Origin: Deltaproteobacteria bacterium RIFOXYD12_FULL_56_24
Lineage (GTDB): Bacteria; Desulfobacterota; Desulfobulbia; Desulfobulbales; Desulfurivibrionaceae
Assembly: GCA_001799285.1 (NCBI GenBank)
Contig: MGTD01000047.1
Span: forward strand, 62,001 to 126,000
Length of the DNA: 64,000 nt
Direction: 5' to 3'
Positions 25,941 to 37,828 of the stretch are shown piece by piece. The number at the start of each line of letters is the position of its first letter. Position 1 is the first letter of the stretch. Under the pieces are notes generated by a model that was not told the DNA's origin, searched no databases, and saw only the letters and a list, made by a program, of their open reading frames with translations. A program made the position numbers and the translations under genes.

Positions 25941-28900
25941 TCATCCCACCAAATCCATCAGCTTGGCGTAACTGTCCACCACGTCATATTTCACCTGCTC
26001 CGAGGTGATTTTTGCAAAGAATTTACGGGCGCACTCGATCTTGCATTCCTCGATTTTCCTGAGTTCCATGGAAGACATGGAGCCTTTGGTTTCGGCGACG
26101 AAATAGATGTGCTTGACCTTGCCCTCTTTAAAGGCAATGGCCCAGTCCGGATTGTAATTGCCCACCGGGGTCGGGATGCCGAACCCTCTGGGTAATTTGG
26201 CATAGACCACCACCTCGGCGCTCTTGTCCAACTCGGCTACAAATTCCCGTTCCCGCCCAGAATCGGTGAAGACATAGTCATAGACATGGCGCTCGGTCTT
26301 TACCGCCCGGCTGAAATCCTGCTGTTTGACCACGGTGAAGATTTCGGCCAGTTTGTGGCGATCTTCCACCGGGTCATAGGAGAGGTGTTCCACCACCGCC
26401 GTGGCTTTCTGCTCGTTGATGATCCTGGCGGTCTTCAACATGAAGTCTTCCGGGTTGGTCCGGTATTGGGAGAAAATAACCGAATTGATTCCCTTCAGGA
26501 TTTCGGCAACGGTCTTTCTGGTCAGCTGGGTGTCTTCGGCCAGCTTGCCGATCAGGTCATATTTGACGGCGGAATGGATGGAGTGGTTCAGGTAATCCGA
26601 CTCGTTCTCCGTCACTTTGAAACCCTGGCCGGCGACCATGTCGTCGTAACTGATCTTGTCGCTTTGCTCGCCCCGTTCCACCGTGTAGCGCAGTTTGGTG
26701 ACCACCAGCTCCTTGTCCAGGGCCGCCACACATTTCTTGATCAGCTCGGCGGTATCAAAATGGACGGTGTAGGCCGCCTTGCGGTTGATCTTTTCCCACA
26801 AGGCTTTGAACTCCGCCTTGTCCAGGTTGGCATTGGTGGGATTCGCTTTGCTTTTTCGGCCATCGTCGATTTTCGGCAGGACAGCATTGCTGAAGACGCT
26901 GTCGATTAACTGGATGATTTGCAGGGCGTAAGGCGCAAGTTCCGGGGGCAGTGGGGCCAGGGTTTCGGATTTCTTGGCCTCATGGTAGATGCTGGTGATG
27001 GCGTCCTTGTCGTCGGTGTAGTCATTTTTAAGGAGGTAGCGGTAAATCTGCTTGGCCATTTGCTCCGTAACCGCCACATCTTCTTTCTCGGTTTTTAGAA
27101 TCTTGCCGGTAAAATACTCCACGTCTGCCTTCCGGGGCCGGGCGGAAAGCGATTCGGACATCTCCTTTTGCAGGTCGCCGACAAAGGTCTTGTAGCTTTC
27201 GCTGGCCACTACAGTCAGGAGGTTAATGGCGTGGATGTCCGCACCGCTATCCATCCGGTCGCCTGCCTGATTGACACAAAGGCGCAGGCCCCGACCTACC
27301 TCCTGGCGCTTGCGGATACTGCTGTCGCTGTGTTTCAAGGTACAGATAACAAAGACATTGGGATTGTCCCAGCCCTCACTCAGGGCGGAATGGGAAAAGA
27401 TAAAGCGCACCTCTTTTTTCCGGCGTGTTTCCTCATCATCATTTGGAGATGGGAACGATAACAAAGATTCCTTGTCCTTCAGGATCAGGTCATAGGCATC
27501 CACATCATCGGCTTCCGTACTCCGCGCCCCCATGGCCGGGTCAACCAGGCGGTTGCTTTTCTTGTCGATGGAAAAATAGCCATTGTGGGTTCTCTCCACC
27601 TTGATCCCGTTCAGATATTCGCGGTATGGCACATCAAGCAGCAATGGCAGGTCATTAAGGACGTTTTTGTACTCTTCCTCGAACATTTGCGCGTACTCGC
27701 CGGGCAGTTCACCACCTTCTCCATAACGCCGATATTTGGCAACCTCGTCGATGAAAAAGAGCGACAGCACCTTGATACCCTGAGGGAATAGGGCCTGTTC
27801 CTTCTCCAGGTGGGCCTTGACCGCCTCGCGGATTTGAATCCGGCGCAGGGTGGCTTCGTTGACATCGCCGGTGGCCTCGCCAGCCGTCAGCACCTCGCCA
27901 TTGGTAAAGGTCACGGTGTCCTGGTTCGCGTCGATCTCGCTGATGACAAAGCCCTTGTATTGCGCCAAGTTTCCGGAGAGATCAAAGAGGTTGTCGCCCT
28001 TGCCGAATTTACGGGATTTCCGGACAATGCCGCTCTGCTGTTTCACCTCGTACTCAATACGGGCCACAGGTGGGGCAGAGGGCGAGATATCAATGGATTC
28101 CAGATAGAGATAAGCGTTGGTGCCGGTCAGCCCCCGCACTGTGATCCCGCGCACCGCAATCTTTTTGACCAGCTTCTGGGTGTAGGCGTCCAGGGCGTCC
28201 AGCCGGTAGATTTTGTTGTGTTCGGTCTTGTGGGTGGCGGAATATCGCAGAATGGCCAGCGGGTTGAACTCTTTGAGCGATTCGGCGGTTTTGGCCCCTT
28301 CCAGTTTTTGCGGTTCATCCAGGATCATGATTGGGTGGTTGCTCTTGATCACGTCGATTGGGCGGCGGGACTGGAAATCGTCCAGCTCTTCATAAATACG
28401 GCGGGCATCCTTGCCCCTGGCATTGAAGGCCTGGACATTGATGATCATTACACTGACGCCGCTGTCCGAGGAAAACTGTTCCAGGAGGTGCAAGTCCTTG
28501 GAGTTGTAAATGAAGAAGCGGGCGCGTTTGCCGTACTGTTCAAGGAAATGTTCGGCGGTAATCTCAAGGGACTTGTGAACCCCCTCACGGATCGCCACCG
28601 ATGGCACCACCACGATGAACTTGGACCAACCGAAACGGCGGTTCAGCTCGAACATGGTCTTGATATAGCAATAGGTCTTGCCGGTGCCGGTTTCCATCTC
28701 GATGTCGAGATTGACCTTGCAGGCCTTGCTGGCGACCAGGGTGGTGGATTGAGGAAGATTTTGCCGTTGTTGCACGGCATGGATGTTTTCCAGAAGCTGT
28801 TGGCCGGTCAAGACCAACTCACGGTTTTTGAAGCCGGACTGGGTAAGGTCCGCTGCCGGTTCAGGATAGAGCTTCCGTGGCACCGGGGCGGTTTTGGCAG

Positions 28901-29021
28901 TCCGCACACCGGGGTCAATCCGGTAGCTGACACTCTCGCTCCTGGGCTGATCAGCAAAGCAATCGGCCACGGCGTTAACCGCCTCGGTCTGGAAGAGCTG
29001 CTTTTTGAATTTCAGTTTCAT
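25941..29021 (-). CDS. Type III restriction enzyme, Res subunit
   Basis: 1026 residues, the usual size. Res is an SF2 ATPase joined to a nuclease; with Mod it cuts DNA when two unmethylated sites are in the proper orientation. Walker A METGTGKT is at 109-116 and the Walker B variant DEPQ at 235-238. The motif VI region [13 protein letters not shown]...[12 protein letters not shown] lies in the second half. The C-terminal nuclease has PD at 958-959 and ETK at 977-979 (NPDWAIAF...VAETKG), so it looks active. Its start overlaps the stop of the RhuM gene by ATGA. It is the last gene of the minus-strand island. Confidence 0.95.
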
Positions 29022-30109
29022 GCGTCGCCCGCCTTCTTGTCATCCGAAGATGCGGATGGCTGCCGCCGAGTTTTTTTGCCAGCTTCGATTTGCTTCAGTT
29101 CCTGCTCCGCTTCGACAAAATGCCTTTCCACCTCGCTCGGTTCCTGTAACTGCTTGAACCGGAATTTTTCATACTCTCCGTGGGCCTTTGCCAAGGCCAC
29201 ATCATGGCTGATTGCCCCGGCATGGGTCAGGAGTTCGCGACCGGTCATGGTCAAGAATTGATGCAACCGTTCAAGCCAGTCCTGCATGGTCATGGCCTGC
29301 CGGTTCAGCGCCTGAATTTCCGCCATTTCAAGGTAGGCGGTCACAATCCGGTTAAGGATATTCAGCTCCTCCTCGTTCAGATAATTCTTGGCAATTTCCA
29401 CATCACGCTTGAGCAGGTTGTTGCCCGGATAATTGGTGATGCCCATGTTCGGCTGGGTGGAATCGGCCCGTTGATAGACCAACTCCGCCGCCGTATGACC
29501 GTGCGCCGCCCAGTGCATTTTGTTCTGAACCTGTTTGAAAAACTGTTTTGCGGCGTCTGAGCGCGGGTCATAGTCAAGGCTGGTGGCGTAAATCTCCAGA
29601 ACCTTGCGCCAGAAAACCTTTTCGGAGGAGCGGATATCCCGGATGCGGGCCAGTAGTTCCTCAAAGTATCTTTCGTTTTGTGGTTCCTTCAGCCGTTCAT
29701 CGTCCATGGTGAAGCCCTTGACGATGTATTCCTTTAATCGCTCCGTGGCCCAGATGCGGAAGCGGGTGGCGATGGCGCTTTTTACCCGGTAGCCCACCGA
29801 GATGATCATGTCGAGGTTGTAGTATTCGAGTCCGCGCCGGACATCCCGGCTGCCCTCCCGGCGAACTGTCAAATATTTTTTGACAGTTGCTTCCGGTTGC
29901 AGTTCCCCCTCTTCAAAAATGCCTTGCACATGGTGGCTGATGTTCTGCTTACTGGTTTGGAAAAGCTCCGCCATCAACTGTTGCGTCAGCCAGACCGTTT
30001 CATCCTCCAGCCGCACCTCCAATTTGATTTCACCGCTGTTGCCCTGGTAAACCAGCAATTCACCCTTGGACGGTTCTTGCCCCTGGCCTTCGTCCTTTTT
30101 ACCTTTCAT
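29018..30109 (-). CDS. RhuM-family (virulence RhuM-like) protein
   Basis: 363 residues. The first ~110 residues hold the RhuM/KilA-like start: [40 protein letters not shown] and [17 protein letters not shown]. The core continues with [17 protein letters not shown] and ends in a lysine-rich tail after [17 protein letters not shown]. RhuM proteins are common in genomic islands and defence loci, and their biochemical role is unknown. The gene overlaps both mod (upstream) and res (downstream) by ATGA, so all three are translated together. That makes it a likely functional part of the type III system rather than a passenger. Confidence 0.85.
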
Positions 30110-31977
30110 ATCGCTTTCACCTCGGTATGGGGCGAAAGCAGTTTGAAAATCTGCTCGATGTTGATTTTGACGCTGTCGTTGCCAAAGGCGTCGTCACGGA
30201 AGACTGCCCGCAGGGGCTGGCGTTTGGCCAGCTTCTTGACCAGCTCTTCATTTATCCCTTTGTCAAAACAGGCCAGGAGGGCATTGCTGTCCACGAAGAA
30301 GACCGTTTTGCCATCGATGGTCTCCTTGGCGATGGGCAGGGTCAGGTCCAGGCCCCAGTCGAGAAAAACCTGGAAGAGCAGGTCTTCGGGGCGGCGGTCG
30401 GGTTTGATGTGGTCGGCGAACATATCCAACTGCCCCTGCTTCAGCTCATCCGGGGCGTAATAGACATCCTTCAGGTTGGAGGTGTCCACCTTGAAGACCC
30501 GGAAGCCGGTGTCGAGGCTATTGGCCTTTTCACCCAGCTCTTCCTTGATCTTCTTACCGGCCCGGCGAATGCGTTCTTTGCCGATCTCGGCGATGGTTTT
30601 GTAACCAGCCTTGTAGGCCTCTGATTTTTCTTCATAGGCTTCTGGAAGCTGCACCATGATGAATTGGCGATTGCCACCGTCTTCGGCGTTAATTTGCATG
30701 ACAGCGTGTCCGGTGGTCGCTGAGCCTGAAAAAAAATCAAGAACGATGTCGTCACCCTTAGAATCCGTAGCTAACCGCAACATGCGCTCGATCAATTTTG
30801 TCGGCTTAGGTGTGTCAAATGATTCTTCGTTGGGAAACAATGATCTAATTTCATTTTTCGAGGTGCGATTGCTACCAACTTCTTCTTTTTTCCAAAGTGT
30901 TCTGGGGACAAGATTTCCGACTTCAGATAGATATCGTTTGATGCTGGGCCGGGCATTGCCGGTGGGTCCCCACCAAATTCGATTTTGTGAATCAAGCTCA
31001 CGAAGTTTCTCCTCAGAGATTCGCCAAAACCTTCCAGGAGGTGGAGAAAATGTTCGTCCCGTAGGACCAGTAATGCTGTACAACCCTTTTGTATATGGTT
31101 TGTTCGCGTACGGGTCACCTGGGAGCCATTCGCCCATGGGATCTTTATCTGGGTTTGAATATATCGAGTTAGCTTCTTCCGTTCTTGGAAGCCGGTTGGG
31201 AATCCATTCTGCATTCTTCCCATAAACAAGAATAAAATCATGGTCTTCTGAAAACTGTTTTGCTGAGTTTCTTGGTGAGTCTGCTTTTTCCCAGATCATA
31301 GTAGAAACATAATTTTGCTCTCCAAAAATTTGGTCGCAGAGTTTCCGTAGATTTGCAACTTCAACTTCGCCGATGGAAACAAATATTGCCCCATCCTCCC
31401 GTAGGAGGTTACGAGCCAGCTTCAGTCTGGGATAAATCATGGTCAGCCAATCGGAATGAAAGCGTCCATTGGCTTCGGTATTGGCCACCAAACGATTCCC
31501 AGTCTCATCCTTTTGGTTGGAGCGTCGGAGGAAGGTTTCGGTATCCTCGGAAAAGTCATCCTCATAGATAAAGTCATTGCCGGTGTTATACGGCGGGTCG
31601 ATGTAGATCAACTTGACCTTGCCCAGATAGGTCTCCTGGAGGAGCTTGAGCACCTCCAGGTTATCGCCTTCGATAAAGAGGTTCCTGGTCGTGGCAAAGT
31701 CAACGCTCTCCTCCTCGCAGGGCCGGAGCGTCTTGGCAATGGGGGCATTGGCGGTCAAGATTGCCTCGTTCTTGCCGGGCCAGGTCAGGGTGTAGCGCTC
31801 ACGCGGGCCTTCCACCAGACTGGCGGAAAGTTCCTGGCGCAGAAGATCGAAATCCACCACCCGGCGCAGGACGCCGTTATCGTCCCGGTCTTCGGTGATG
31901 CAGTTGGGAAAGAGTTCGGCTATTTTGTCGATATTGGCATCCACCAGATTTGGCGATTGCATTTTCAGCTTGTCCAT
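30106..31977 (-). CDS. Type III restriction-modification methyltransferase, Mod subunit
   Basis: 623-residue N6-adenine DNA methyltransferase of the beta class. Motif IV DPPYNTGNDF begins at 127, and the SAM-binding motif I DFFSGSATTGHA follows at 414-425, the order typical of Mod. Residues about 220-400 between them should be the target-recognition domain; the DNA for this part (about 30.78-31.35 kb) looks AT-richer than the flanks. The ATG has an AAGGATTACC site. A palindrome lies just upstream, and rhuM overlaps its end. Mod recognises the site and protects host DNA, and also guides Res. Confidence 0.95.
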   Translation of the reverse strand: MDKLKMQSPNLVDANIDKIAELFPNCITEDRDDNGVLRRVVDFDLLRQELSASLVEGPRERYTLTWPGKNEAILTANAPIAKTLRPCEEESVDFATTRNLFIEGDNLEVLKLLQETYLGKVKLIYIDPPYNTGNDFIYEDDFSEDTETFLRRSNQKDETGNRLVANTEANGRFHSDWLTMIYPRLKLARNLLREDGAIFVSIGEVEVANLRKLCDQIFGEQNYVSTMIWEKADSPRNSAKQFSEDHDFILVYGKNAEWIPNRLPRTEEANSIYSNPDKDPMGEWLPGDPYANKPYTKGLYSITGPTGRTFSPPPGRFWRISEEKLRELDSQNRIWWGPTGNARPSIKRYLSEVGNLVPRTLWKKEEVGSNRTSKNEIRSLFPNEESFDTPKPTKLIERMLRLATDSKGDDIVLDFFSGSATTGHAVMQINAEDGGNRQFIMVQLPEAYEEKSEAYKAGYKTIAEIGKERIRRAGKKIKEELGEKANSLDTGFRVFKVDTSNLKDVYYAPDELKQGQLDMFADHIKPDRRPEDLLFQVFLDWGLDLTLPIAKETIDGKTVFFVDSNALLACFDKGINEELVKKLAKRQPLRAVFRDDAFGNDSVKINIEQIFKLLSPHTEVKAI

Positions 31978-32051
31978 CGGTAATCCTTTTCCCTTTTTCG
32001 CTGGCTGTTTCCCGTTTTTCCCGCTCTCGTGGTCACTGGCTTTTACACAAG

Positions 32052-32103
32052 TTACTCAATTTTTACTCAACTGCCGTTTCAAGCCTTACTCAATATTGAG
32101 TAA
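32052..32103 (-). promoter_or_regulatory. Operator-like palindrome and half-sites upstream of mod
   Basis: TTACTCAATATTGAGTAA (32086-32103) is a perfect 18-bp palindrome. Two further half-sites in direct orientation, TTACTCAAT (32052-32060) and TTTACTCAA (32062-32070), lie about one helical turn apart. The cluster is between the end of the AlbA_2 gene and the mod start, the right place for a repressor or C-protein-like regulator of the mod-rhuM-res operon. Confidence 0.65.
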
Positions 32104-32108
32104 AATAC

Positions 32109-33824
32109 TTAACTCATCCCGTTCCGGAGACGATATCGTCTGCTTTTGGGACTGGTGCCATAAGCTTCCAAAAAATCCAGGCCGGCCAACAGTTTGGATA
32201 CGGTGCTCTGCGCCGAACGGCTATTGCCGAGGAGGAACAGATCGCGGCACTCGCTATTATTTATTGAACCATTCTGCTCGACATACTGACGGATCAAAGC
32301 AGGCCACTGCACCTTGTCAATCGCCTTGGAGCGGCTGTATACGCCTTTCCCCACAAGTTCCGCCGCCACCGACGCGGAAAGATGATAGGTGACCCCGCTC
32401 TTCTTTCCCCGTCTTTCCAACCAGGGGGTTGTACGATGGCAGAATTGATCAAGGCGGTCCTTCACCCGCGTTTCGCTTAGCTGGCTGATCTTGGCGGCAG
32501 TTGTCACGTCAATATCAGCATGCTCGCGGAGATAAGACAAAAGCAGCAGCTCGACAACGTCGAATGTCTCCCCTTTTCGTTCCCTGGTGGCTATATAGGT
32601 CGCCAGTTCCCGGTCAAAGATACCGTCAAAGAGGGTCAGTTTGACGGTATGGGCGTCAGCCTCGTAGAGCGGTGCTCTTTTGCCATACGCAAGCGGCGGG
32701 ATAAATATTCGCCGTCTGCCGATTCCGGCCCGTTCCACCAAGCCAAGCTTCTGAAACATTTCGGCAAGCAGCCGATTGCGGGCCTTGGGCTCGGCGTGCA
32801 GGACGTTTTCCGCCGTAATCCCGCCGATAAACCCTCCCGGGCTACTGATGGTCATCTCTCGGTCCGTATGGCGGATATAGACACTACCAGACTCCAGGTA
32901 ATCACGATGGATAAGCGCATTCAGGATGGCCTCTCGAAATGTCGGCTCCGGGAAGGCGGGAATATCGACATGGAAAAGCCCGGTTTTCAGGGTTTTGAAG
33001 GGGTTCCTGATGTTGATGGCATCCGTCAGTTTTTCCAGGATTTGCAGCAAGGGGCCTTTTTGATCCAGGCGAAAATCAAGGTCGATTGGGGAGATGTGAT
33101 GCAGGTAAATTACTTCATGACCGGTGATATTCCGGCGGACGACATCCTCTCTTCCTGCAATCAGGAGCCCGGCCCTGGTGACCCGGCCATTGCGGGTCAC
33201 CCCCAGCGCGGCCAATAACTCTCTATCATCAAGTGCCAGAAGAGAAGATTCGGCGCGATTGGCGCGCAATACATTGCGCAGCCGGGCAAACTCAGTGGGG
33301 TCCAAGTCTTCAATGCCAACGCCGTCAGCCAGTGCAGCGCTCCAGTCCAGCGCCCCCATGCCGATCTGCTTGCGTTGAAAATCCTCAGGCGAATACGGCA
33401 TACAGTTTTTGCCAACCCTGACCTGATAAAGGCCAGCCGAAGTCCCATAGGGCGGGGTCGGTCCCTTGGGGATCCGGACGAGAATGAGATTGCCTTCGGG
33501 AACGGACAGCTCTGAAACATCCACGGTCAGATTGGGCATTGTTCTTTCATAAATACCACGCCGCCAGACATCCAGATCGTATCGCTCACAGCCGCTTATT
33601 GCCTTGGATCGGCCCCGGATGTCATCCTTGACCCCGAACACCACCACTCCGCCATTGGCGTTGGCAAAGCAAACAGCCATCTGGACAGCTTCATGCAAGG
33701 ATTTCTTGGCATCGACCCACCGTTTGAAATCGAGAACTTCTGATTCAAGCTGGTCGGCAGTGGCCTCATTAATCATGTACAGCAGACTAAGGATTGTTTC
33801 TGGCGATGGGATGATTGGGGGCAT
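32109..33824 (-). CDS. AlbA_2 and HATPase_c_4 domain protein (COG2865-type regulator-like)
   Basis: 571 residues. The N-terminal ~130 residues are a Schlafen-type AlbA_2 domain (ESEVLDFKRWVDAKKSLHEAV, ANANGGVVVFGVKDD, a GLYQVRVGKNCMPYS turn). Around 270-380 is an HATPase_c_4 region: FREAILNALIHRDYLESGSVYI, ISSPGGF and GLVERAGIGRRRIF. The C-terminal ~170 residues contain winged-helix-like segments (TTAAKISQLSETRVKDRLDQF). Such proteins are often called predicted transcriptional regulators or helicase-like ATPases, but few are characterised. It lies between the DUF4391 gene and the mod operator, so it may regulate the operon; direct antiviral action is also possible. Confidence 0.8.
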   Translation of the reverse strand: MPPIIPSPETILSLLYMINEATADQLESEVLDFKRWVDAKKSLHEAVQMAVCFANANGGVVVFGVKDDIRGRSKAISGCERYDLDVWRRGIYERTMPNLTVDVSELSVPEGNLILVRIPKGPTPPYGTSAGLYQVRVGKNCMPYSPEDFQRKQIGMGALDWSAALADGVGIEDLDPTEFARLRNVLRANRAESSLLALDDRELLAALGVTRNGRVTRAGLLIAGREDVVRRNITGHEVIYLHHISPIDLDFRLDQKGPLLQILEKLTDAINIRNPFKTLKTGLFHVDIPAFPEPTFREAILNALIHRDYLESGSVYIRHTDREMTISSPGGFIGGITAENVLHAEPKARNRLLAEMFQKLGLVERAGIGRRRIFIPPLAYGKRAPLYEADAHTVKLTLFDGIFDRELATYIATRERKGETFDVVELLLLSYLREHADIDVTTAAKISQLSETRVKDRLDQFCHRTTPWLERRGKKSGVTYHLSASVAAELVGKGVYSRSKAIDKVQWPALIRQYVEQNGSINNSECRDLFLLGNSRSAQSTVSKLLAGLDFLEAYGTSPKSRRYRLRNGMS

Positions 33825-33904
33825 TACATTTTATCTCCAAAACACGGGTCGTTATCGGCCTAAGCCTTTGCAGGTTGCGGAGCAACGGTAACCCGGCAAC
33901 GAAT

Positions 33905-34555
33905 TCATCGCAACTCCATTAACCTCGCCTGGATGACGCGCATCTGGGCATTGATTTCCACCTTGCGGTTGAACTGTTTTTCCTTGTGCATCTTGGACTC
34001 CAGGACTTGCCGCTCACGGTTGAGCTTACGGATTGCCCACACCCGTTCCACCAAGGCCTGCAAGGTTTCGCCATTACGGGGCGGTAAATCAATCAAGGCA
34101 AGAAGCATCTGTTCGTAAAGGGCCTTGATGTCCAGCGCCACCGGCAAGGACAAGAGGGGGGCGGAGGCTGGCGTCCAGCCGGTCTCGAAATAGCAGGCCG
34201 TTACCCAATTGCCCGAGCCATCTACCGCCGGTCGCTTGTAAGCCGCGACCTGTTTGGCCATCTCGCCGTGCCATAATCGAAAGAACAAAGGGTATGGGAT
34301 AACGCCGTCAATCAGTTCCAGAACCTCCGTCGCCAGTTCCGGCCCTTTTAAGCTAATGTCGAAGACCTGAATTTCCTGGTAGCCGTCCCGTTGGGCCAGA
34401 TTGACAGTGCCTTCGGCCAGTTTGTACTTCCAAACAATCTCATTGATTTGCGATATAACCATGGCCTTGACCTTTTGGGAAGGCTTGGCGTTGGCGTAGA
34501 TTTTAGTCTTGGGCACCACCCGGTTGAACAGGGCCTTGTCTGGATAGGCGAACAT
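33905..34555 (-). CDS. DUF4391-domain protein
   Basis: 216 residues. The DUF4391 pattern as remembered is visible: an N-terminal NRVVPKTKIYANA, then VISQINEIVWKYKLAEGTVNL, the GVIPYPLFFRLWHG segment in the middle and a charged helical C-terminus with LNRERQVLESKMHKEKQFN. The function is unknown, but the family co-occurs with SNF2/PLD-type helicases. Here it starts 3 bp after the helicase stop, so the two are coupled. No catalytic motif is evident; it may be an adaptor to the helicase. Confidence 0.8.
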   Translation of the reverse strand: MFAYPDKALFNRVVPKTKIYANAKPSQKVKAMVISQINEIVWKYKLAEGTVNLAQRDGYQEIQVFDISLKGPELATEVLELIDGVIPYPLFFRLWHGEMAKQVAAYKRPAVDGSGNWVTACYFETGWTPASAPLLSLPVALDIKALYEQMLLALIDLPPRNGETLQALVERVWAIRKLNRERQVLESKMHKEKQFNRKVEINAQMRVIQARLMELR

Positions 34556-34558
34556 GGT

Positions 34559-37500
34559 TTAGGCCCCAGCCCGGACCACCAGAAAGGCGATAAGCTCGAA
34601 ATCATCCAGGCCGGTAATGGTGTTCTGCAAAGCCGTGGTGCCGCCGCTGGAAAAGAGGCTGTCGATGTCTTTGTCTTCCTTCAGGTTGATCATCGAGTGA
34701 ATGGCCTGTTCCAACAGCTTTGAATATGCCTCCATCTTGCGCCCATCGCGGGTTTCCAGGTTGAATGGTTCGTAGAGTTGAGAAATTGGTGCCGAGCGAT
34801 CCTTGCAGGCGGCGCGCAAGAGATCGAGGATTCTTTTGACCTCCAGGTGGTTAATGCGGACCGCGCCGTTCAGATCGATGTAAATCAGATAATAGGGATG
34901 CAATCGGTTCTGCTGGTTGACGTTTACCCCCTGATCGGTGTTGCGCAAAATAAAAATCACCCCCGGTTCCAGCCCTTTTTCCGGGTCGGCACCGATTACC
35001 GCATGCATGCCTTTCGGCACCCCGGCGAGTCCGCCGTTGACTTTAACGTAATTGACCAGGTCCATGCGAAAGTCATTCAGACCGAGATCGGTTATGGATA
35101 CGCCGGTCTTGACGTCTTCCAGATCAATGACCTCATCCTGGAGGCGTTGGAGCTGGGCCTTACGGAAAGCCAGATCGTTGGCCTCGGCGCTGAGGACATT
35201 GTCGTCGCCGGTGGCGGTTACGTCGGCGATGACCATCCGGCTTTCGACCCGGTCCTTGAGATTGATATAGTCATCAAGGCTGATATCCGGCCAGAAGTTG
35301 ACCAGCTGAATGCGTTCGTTCCGTGAGCCGATCCGGTCGATTCGGCCGAAACGTTGAATGATCCGGACCGGATTCCAGTGAATATCATAGTTGACCAGAA
35401 AGTCGCAGTCCTGGAGGTTTTGGCCCTCGGAAATACAATCGGTGCCGATCAGGATATCGAGCTCGACCGGTTCATTGGGCATGACAACGGCCTTTTCCTT
35501 GGATATCGGGGAGAACAAGGTAAGGATCGACTGGAAATCGTAATGCCTTGATAAGGTTGTTTTGCAGCTGTCGGAGCCGGTGACCTTGGCGGTTTGGAGC
35601 CCGAATTGCTTATTAAACCAGGGAGCAAGATTGTCGAAGAGATAGCCGGCGGTGTCGGAAAAGGCAGTGAAGATCAAGACCTTCCGGTTGCCGGGATTGA
35701 TCGGGGTTTGCAGCTTGCGGGTAATAACCTCTTTGAGGCATGACAATTTTGCATCGTCCGGCGGGGTAATCTTGCGCATCTCCGCCAGTAGTTCAGCGAA
35801 AATCTCCAGGTCATCGCGAAGATCGTTCTCCCACGATTCCAGATCCATATCGGCCAAATTTATCTTAACCCGCCCACCGATGGATGAATCGTCGTCGGGA
35901 ATTTCCATGTCGTCTTCATCGGCATTTTCAAAGCCAAGGGAAATATCCTCGAAGCTTTCTGACTCACCGGTTTCATTGAAATTGATGATCTTGGCCAAGG
36001 TGTTTTCATGCTTGGCCTGCAAAGTCTGTAAGGTCCGGCGAAAGGCCTCGACCGAGCTTTCCAGGCGCTTGAGCAGGTTGACCGTCATCAAGGCCTGGAG
36101 GCTGCGCTCACGATCCGCCTGTTTTAAGCGGGAAAGGCCGCCCTGCACCTCCGTGTCGTAGAGAGCTTCGTATTTGCCGAGGCGGCTGGCCAGGATATAG
36201 CGGAAAGGCGCATAGACCGACATCTTCAGGACAATCAGGCGATTAAAAATGTCGTTGAAGTTGATGACGTCGCCCCGATTGGTCAGGGGGCAATGGTAGG
36301 AAAGGGGCTTGAGCCGCTGCGGGAAAGGGCCGATGTCCTTGGTGTCGTAAAATTTCTGGATATGCTTGCGAGAGCGGGCAATGGTCACGCTATCGAGCAA
36401 CTCGAAGAAATCGAAATCAAGTGCGTTGAGGATAGCCCCCGGAGTCCGATCCTCGGGCGCCAACTTGGCCCAGACATTGAAGACGCCTTGTGCCCGGCGG
36501 AAGACCTCGTTGATATCCTTCTCGGTTCGCAATCTATGGTCCAGCTTGTCCGGATCGCCTTCGTAGGCCAGGGCCAACTGGTTGCGCAGGTCGGTAAAGC
36601 GGTTGTTAACCGGCGTGGCGGAGAGCATCAAAACCTTGGTTCGCACCCCGGCTTTGATCACCTTGTTCATCAGTTTCTGGTAACGAGTTTCCCGGTCCTT
36701 GAAAGCCTCGTTATTGCGGAAGTTATGGGACTCGTCGATGACAACTAAGTCGAAGTTTCCCCAGTTGATCCGGTTGAGCGGGATGCCCAGGGAGTAGCCC
36801 CGGTCCCGTTGCAGGTCGGTATGGCAGAGAACGGTATAGCTGAAGCGATCCTTGGCGAAGATGTTGGTGACCAGGTTCTGGTTGTAGTTCTGCCAGTTGT
36901 CGGAAAGCTTTTTGGGGCAGAGAACCAGGACCGACTTGTTGCGAAGCTCGTAATATTTTACCACGGCCAAAGCGGTGAAGGTTTTACCAAGGCCGACGCT
37001 ATCGGCCAGGATACAACCGTTGAAGCTTTCCAGCTTGTTGATGATGCCGATGGCTGCGTCTCGCTGGAAGTTGAAGAGTTTCTGCCAGATAAGGGTGTCC
37101 TGGTAACCGGTGCGGTCATTGGGCATCACGTCTTCGGTGATGTCTTCGAGAAATTCGTTGAAGATGTTGTAGAGGACCAGAAAATAGATGGACTCCGGGG
37201 AGTTTTCGTTATAGACGGCGGCAATATGATCACAAACCTGGGCGGTAATATCTTCGAGTTTTTCGGAATCATGCCAAATTTGATCGAACAACTTCAAATA
37301 GGTGGTCGTGGAGGTGTCGGTGAGCTTGTTGACGTAGTTGGAAACTGCGTTGCCTCGCTGATATCCAAGATCGACCGCCGTGAAGCCATTTAAGGGGAGA
37401 TATACCGCTCTGTCCGAATCGTTATCGATGCAGGCGAATTGCTGCATCGGGGCATTGGTGCGGTTTGAGCGGAACTGGACTTTTCGCTGAATCCATTCCG

Positions 37501-37828
37501 CGCATTCTTTGGCAATGGCACGCTGGGTAAGTTCGTTTTTTAGACGAATCTCAAACTCGGTACCATAAATGCTGTTTTCCCGTTGGAGTTTCGGGATATG
37601 AAACTCCCGCTTTTCCCGGTTGAACTTATCGGCGATCTGGCTCTGAATGAAGGCCGGGGAGGTGAAGATGAACTGAAGTGATTCAATTTTTTCGAGTTCG
37701 GCTTTCAATGCTTCGTAAGCGTAAATGGAGAAACAAGAGGCGGCTATGCGGATTTTCGCGTTTGGCGAGCGAAGCACCATCTTGAGGTTGTCGCCGAACA
37801 ACCGGCTGACATTGTCAATTATCTCCAT
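34559..37828 (-). CDS. Helicase of SNF2 type with N-terminal PLD-like region
   Basis: 1089 residues. The first ~150 residues resemble the phospholipase-D-like module found on defence helicases, but no HKD motif is seen. The SNF2 core follows: Walker A DSVGLGKT at 276-283, DESH at 365-368, SATPVNNR, and the C-terminal helicase lobe with IGTDCISEGQNLQDCDFLVNYD and WNPVRIIQRFGRIDRIGS. It is first in the island's transcription order. DISARM helicases are similar in outline, but no DUF1998 (DrmB) gene is present, so DISARM is not supported. It may translocate on or remodel invading DNA with the DUF4391 partner. Confidence 0.9.
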   Translation of the reverse strand: MEIIDNVSRLFGDNLKMVLRSPNAKIRIAASCFSIYAYEALKAELEKIESLQFIFTSPAFIQSQIADKFNREKREFHIPKLQRENSIYGTEFEIRLKNELTQRAIAKECAEWIQRKVQFRSNRTNAPMQQFACIDNDSDRAVYLPLNGFTAVDLGYQRGNAVSNYVNKLTDTSTTTYLKLFDQIWHDSEKLEDITAQVCDHIAAVYNENSPESIYFLVLYNIFNEFLEDITEDVMPNDRTGYQDTLIWQKLFNFQRDAAIGIINKLESFNGCILADSVGLGKTFTALAVVKYYELRNKSVLVLCPKKLSDNWQNYNQNLVTNIFAKDRFSYTVLCHTDLQRDRGYSLGIPLNRINWGNFDLVVIDESHNFRNNEAFKDRETRYQKLMNKVIKAGVRTKVLMLSATPVNNRFTDLRNQLALAYEGDPDKLDHRLRTEKDINEVFRRAQGVFNVWAKLAPEDRTPGAILNALDFDFFELLDSVTIARSRKHIQKFYDTKDIGPFPQRLKPLSYHCPLTNRGDVINFNDIFNRLIVLKMSVYAPFRYILASRLGKYEALYDTEVQGGLSRLKQADRERSLQALMTVNLLKRLESSVEAFRRTLQTLQAKHENTLAKIINFNETGESESFEDISLGFENADEDDMEIPDDDSSIGGRVKINLADMDLESWENDLRDDLEIFAELLAEMRKITPPDDAKLSCLKEVITRKLQTPINPGNRKVLIFTAFSDTAGYLFDNLAPWFNKQFGLQTAKVTGSDSCKTTLSRHYDFQSILTLFSPISKEKAVVMPNEPVELDILIGTDCISEGQNLQDCDFLVNYDIHWNPVRIIQRFGRIDRIGSRNERIQLVNFWPDISLDDYINLKDRVESRMVIADVTATGDDNVLSAEANDLAFRKAQLQRLQDEVIDLEDVKTGVSITDLGLNDFRMDLVNYVKVNGGLAGVPKGMHAVIGADPEKGLEPGVIFILRNTDQGVNVNQQNRLHPYYLIYIDLNGAVRINHLEVKRILDLLRAACKDRSAPISQLYEPFNLETRDGRKMEAYSKLLEQAIHSMINLKEDKDIDSLFSSGGTTALQNTITGLDDFELIAFLVVRAGA

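Follow-up and report, generated by a model that had tools for sequence, protein, structure and literature searches.

The gap behind the AlbA_2 gene in the window (that is, the whole 64,000-nucleotide stretch of DNA analyzed here) contains an array of six TTnnnTAA half-sites, which runs from the AlbA_2 stop codon to about 66 bp before the start of mod (position 31977). Judging from its sequence and from its counterparts elsewhere, the array probably serves as a DNA operator private to the AlbA_2 protein, whose gene immediately precedes it, and would, in that capacity, control mod-rhuM-res.

The surrounding region (25941-37828) is a composite defense locus, in which a type III R-M module is combined with an HKD/SNF2 helicase-DUF4391 module. 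On the minus strand, the order is HKD/SNF2 helicase, DUF4391, AlbA_2, array, mod, rhuM, and res, with the following features:

34559..37828, minus strand: HKD/SNF2-type helicase, first gene of the upstream half (PADLOC C3a139 HKD+Snf2)
33905..34555, minus strand: DUF4391 gene, upstream of AlbA_2
32109..33824, minus strand: AlbA_2 gene, encoding SLFN_AlbA_2 (residues 27-143), HATPase_c_4 (315-398), and, at the C-terminus, two segments that resemble winged helices; product proposed to bind the array
about 32043..32111, minus strand: operator-like array of six half-sites, layout > 9 < 10 > 23 > 11 > 9 >, kept in five relatives
about 32105..32111, minus strand: degenerate half-site TTAAGTA (plus strand TACTTAA) over the AlbA_2 stop codon, placed by sequence and alignment
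32086..32103, no strand assigned: perfect palindrome TTACTCAATATTGAGTAA, formed by two half-sites at a spacing of 10 bp; no second genomic copy with up to 3 mismatches
32063..32070, minus strand: direct half-site TTGAGTAA (plus strand TTACTCAA)
32052..32059, minus strand: direct half-site TTGAGTAA (plus strand TTACTCAA)
32043..32050, minus strand: direct half-site with one mismatch, TTGTGTAA (plus strand TTACACAA)
30106..31977, minus strand: mod, type III N6/N4 methyltransferase, first gene past the array
29018..30109, minus strand: rhuM (Virulence_RhuM; PADLOC PDC-S05), overlapping mod
25941..29021, minus strand: res, type III restriction subunit, overlapping rhuM

Both type III R-M genes, mod and res, are present (MTase_III, E 1.4e-244; REase_III, E 0), with rhuM between them, and the three genes overlap by a few bases (30106/30109 and 29018/29021). 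Since they overlap and all lie downstream of the array, one switch would govern methylase and nuclease together, and the earlier idea that the array serves to time the methylase relative to the nuclease is not supported.

The minus-strand sequence of the array reads TTAAGTA tt TTACTCAA ta TTGAGTAA ggcttgaaacggcag TTGAGTAA aaa TTGAGTAA c TTGTGTAA. Inspection of the sequence confirmed that the 18-bp palindrome at 32086-32103 is fully symmetric, as originally predicted, and the two direct half-sites proposed alongside it were also recovered, at 32052-32059 and 32063-32070. The cluster as first delimited (32052-32103) was positioned correctly but was slightly narrow; its four half-sites were right, but TTACACAA at 32043-32050 and TACTTAA at about 32105-32111 had been missed, and the array spans about 32043-32111. 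In an alignment, the position of the outermost, degenerate half-site (TTAAGTA) matches that of TTGTATA(C) in three relatives described below (G609, G431, and G581). With up to 3 mismatches allowed, TTACTCAATATTGAGTAA occurs once in the window, for which shuffling gave an expectation of 0.03, and has no further copy in the 3.04-Mb genome, so the palindrome is not the common genomic element that would have spoken against the original prediction. Pairs of half-sites at most 30 bp apart, whether direct or inverted, were found in the 3.04-Mb genome in this array only, and in view of the lack of any further half-site cluster there, we ruled out a genome-wide operator. An intrinsic terminator was ruled out as well, as the array contains no G+C-rich stem followed by a T run.

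Close relatives were collected from the same phylum with the AlbA_2 C-terminus (178 aa) as the query, a class-level search returning the same set as an order-level search. Five relatives, with AlbA_2 C-termini that are 50 to 79% identical, keep the array layout directly past the stop codon, and the half-site words (TTGAGTAA, TTAAGTAA, TTGTATAA, and TTAAATAA) differ in concert among the loci:

G609 and G431: word TTGTATAA; AlbA_2 between pglX and pglZ in a BREX locus
G581: word TTGTATAA; decayed gene
G195: word TTAAGTAA; decayed gene, mod not seen
G045: words TTAAATAA/ATAAATAA and a perfect palindrome of its own, GTTAAATAATTATTTAAC; ResIII gene next

The outer TT..TA of the half-site is constant in all close-relative arrays, and the central three bases, in a half-site register chosen by hand from the alignment, are 87% identical within an array but 38% identical when equivalent positions of different loci are compared (p 5e-5 by permutation). 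This concerted change of the word looks like the pattern expected of a specificity change followed by all sites. The absence of the palindrome from orthologous loci, originally put forward as grounds for refutation, would therefore be a misleading test: these loci carry another half-site word but retain the layout of the array. The genes past the array vary (BREX pglZ, a ResIII gene, a WYL-type gene after a decayed copy, and a decayed locus), and AlbA_2 is the sole gene common to these loci, be they type III R-M, BREX, or decayed. Because no other gene accompanies the array through these settings, AlbA_2 is the best candidate binder, and the variation of the word with the protein lends further support to the original suggestion that the protein, with its winged-helix-like C-terminus, may bind here.

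The AlbA_2 protein of the window contains, according to Pfam, an AlbA_2 domain (E 2.5e-19) followed by HATPase_c_4 (E 1.6e-13). Its putative C-terminal winged helix has no Pfam HTH match in the window protein itself and aligns with members of the family that do have HTH_24, IclR, MarR_2, or TrmB. The family profile matches an uncharacterized protein of known structure, 3LMM, over its full length (E 7.5e-58), making 3LMM a full-length homologue, and the Pfam C-terminal domain "Transcriptional regulator DIP2311-like" was matched in two of nine family members; we know of no function or operator of 3LMM. An AlphaFold model made without an alignment (pLDDT 35) was discarded. Plasmids hold distant homologues of the AlbA_2 protein and no close ones; for its C-terminal part, no match was found in plasmids or phages, and for the full protein, none was found in viral contigs.

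Motif similarity was found to track protein similarity (Mantel rho 0.26, p 0.0004). After controlling for N-terminal identity, the correlation with the motif was stronger for the first winged helix (partial r 0.19, p 0.005) than for the last (partial r 0.11, p 0.06), and given how weak the latter value is, a sharp recognition-helix code is not proven. Among individual pairs, L141 and L149 belong to different subfamilies and share DRNQ-Y-RL helices and TATGCTC words, and FQA[ST]RLL helices pair with TATGAGCG in L015, L019, and L166, though not in L156.

The association was then assessed for the family of AlbA_2/HATPase_c_4/winged-helix genes (COG2865-like) as a whole, represented by 38 loci of the same phylum. 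Within 140 bp past the stop codon, the 8-mer with the most copies, counted on both strands with one mismatch allowed, was compared with 150 dinucleotide shuffles, which yielded a significant array (p<=0.02) in 19 of the 38 family loci versus 1 of 187 control windows from the same loci; the other half of the family loci had no significant array by this test. Because the 140-bp window had been chosen after a first look, the test was repeated unchanged on a second phylum, giving 10/25 loci versus 8/120 controls at p<=0.05 and a weaker 5/25 versus 6/120 at p<=0.02; three of the 25 loci are identical copies. As the loci are homologous, the counts in these tests are not fully independent. When AlbA_2 genes were compared with other gap-followed genes of the same loci, the ratio was 10/19 versus 9/188 (p 2e-7); four of these nine are in fact AlbA_2 genes that the filter failed to catch, while a sequencing gap produced one of the ten as an artefact, without which p is 1e-6. 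A count of 14/23 AlbA_2 genes versus 5/184 others was set aside as biased, since AlbA_2 genes had been moved after looking.

Across arrays, the first half-site lies near the stop codon, adjacent half-sites are mostly 8 to 13 bp apart (with a second group at 20 to 24 bp), and both orientations are present in 33 of 35 arrays; word density is 37/kb inside the array versus 0.7/kb outside. The genes that follow are mostly defense genes; among them are pglX, pglZ, N6/N4 methylases, DUF1156 methylases, DUF499, hsdS, hsdR, ResIII, AAA_21, and a nucleotidyltransferase.

Several individual loci deserve mention. In L038 (7381-8500) and L068 (430-690), the AlbA_2 genes are broken by deletion or stop codons and the arrays behind them are still clear, meaning either that these genes decayed recently or that the array serves some other purpose. 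L139, L140, and L148, from three different species in the second phylum, have identical AlbA_2 C-termini and identical seven-site arrays, suggesting that the cassette was recently transferred horizontally. In L067 (7506-18003), an AlbA_2/wHTH gene adjoins type III CRISPR-like genes (Cas10- and Cmr-like by reading) and a gene for an adenosine deaminase domain protein. Finally, six copies of GTAAATAG are located behind a ParB_N/HTH_ParB gene in a defense-rich locus (L085, after 13554), possibly as parS-like sites of its own.

The exact 18-mer TTACTCAATATTGAGTAA was found six times, in unrelated organisms, in a scan of a 257-Gb contig collection. As four of the six matches resemble terminators or plain hairpins, we rejected the exact palindrome as a family marker. 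One match lies in an operator-like cluster that belongs to a different wHTH gene: in L034 (7045-7147; Aminicenantes contig JAUWVG010000083.1), the identical palindrome and further TTGAGTAA-type half-sites lie directly before an HTH-nucleotidyltransferase (MNT-like) gene, so that a second regulator has apparently converged on this word. A second small gene beside the MNT-like gene may be a HEPN partner.

Repeated operator half-sites governing R-M genes also occur with R-M controller (C) proteins, small HTH proteins whose C-boxes lie upstream of their own gene. The present locus differs in that no such protein is found there, no small HTH controller gene having been recognized beside the R-M genes among the main open reading frames of the locus. 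Closest in function are BrxR (PMC9122601) and, likewise, CapW (PMC9122588), WYL-domain winged-helix regulators beside BREX or other defense genes, which bind inverted repeats and repress; the common element would be a winged-helix regulator with repeated sites by defense genes. However, BrxR boxes are single pairs of 10- to 11-bp inverted repeats upstream of brxR, whereas AlbA_2 arrays contain up to eight half-sites, in both orientations, just past the regulator's gene and inside the operon, and a Pfam scan of all proteins of the present locus revealed no WYL domain.

We propose that dimers or oligomers of AlbA_2 would bind the half-sites through their predicted C-terminal winged helices, with bound half-sites one or two helical turns apart, and that this binding would control transcription of mod-rhuM-res as one unit. 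Most likely, these genes would be repressed until the N-terminal AlbA_2/HATPase part senses something, repression seeming likelier than activation by analogy with BrxR and CapW. Regulator gene and array together would then form a portable cassette inside many defense operons.

The main rival to this proposal owes its place to a consensus scan, weak evidence in this organism, that found no sigma-70-like promoter at the array: AlbA_2 on the array might instead serve as a roadblock or processivity switch that halts readthrough from the helicase-DUF4391-AlbA_2 promoter into mod-rhuM-res. That the array begins at its own gene's stop codon, with genes of the same strand on either side, would fit such a device, but the intergenic gaps that follow, at 100 to 150 bp, leave enough room for a promoter, and we consider a roadblock unlikely. 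We give still less credence to the array acting as RNA, with AlbA_2, a Schlafen RNase relative, binding or cutting the repeats in a polycistronic transcript. Schlafen AlbA_2 domains are generally known to be RNA-active (SLFN13, PMC5862951), and some arrays that contain half-sites in inverted orientation form good RNA folds (z -7.4, -5.6, and -2.4); the array in the window, however, folds no better than shuffles (z -0.29), the mixed orientations in 33/35 arrays suit double-stranded DNA, the unpaired direct repeats share the same word, which pairing would not require, and the winged helix predicted at the C-terminus is a DNA-binding fold.

It is very unlikely, furthermore, that the array belongs to another protein, such as RhuM, DUF4391, or a regulator encoded elsewhere. 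RhuM may, by reading, have an N-terminal HTH-like segment, and the L034 palindrome before an unrelated gene implies that the word is not AlbA_2 specific; nevertheless, the genome contains no second cluster, and the BREX relatives (G431 and G609) keep the array past AlbA_2 with mod, rhuM, res, and DUF4391 absent from the DNA seen. That the repeats are functionless products of chance or neutral processes is scarcely credible: although six exact 18-mers in 257 Gb is about the chance expectation, and most of those matches look like terminators or hairpins, the uniqueness in the genome, the conserved layout with a concerted word change, and the family-wide enrichment all argue against it.

In the accessible text of a 2026 survey (PMC12839542), AlbA_2/HATPase/wHTH proteins are reported from BREX loci of at least 1017 taxa and classed as Schlafen-family (backup) RNase effectors; these Schlafen proteins, with a minimal histidine kinase and a wHTH, have the same domain order and the same genomic setting as ours, and that text, which takes the RNase-effector view, mentions neither arrays nor a regulatory role. 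Our search of the open-access literature (subscription papers and preprints being outside its scope) found no report of operator arrays for AlbA_2/Schlafen-type proteins. The sequences presented here suggest that proteins catalogued as RNA-cutting effectors may also, or instead, be gene switches. With somewhat less assurance than for the single locus, we favor the view that AlbA_2/HATPase/winged-helix proteins constitute a large family of plug-in switches, each with its own array behind its gene and a word coevolving with it, that have been inserted before unrelated defense genes (BREX, type I/III R-M, and DUF499/DUF1156). If this is true, the present "RNase effectors" would be sensors that switch defense genes, a matter of some relevance given that the silencing of toxic defense systems is understood for few regulators, e.g., BrxR and CapW. 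If each protein indeed has a readable array beside its gene, its target DNA would be predictable from sequence alone, and the many natural protein-word pairs would form a data set on how the DNA specificity of winged helices changes.
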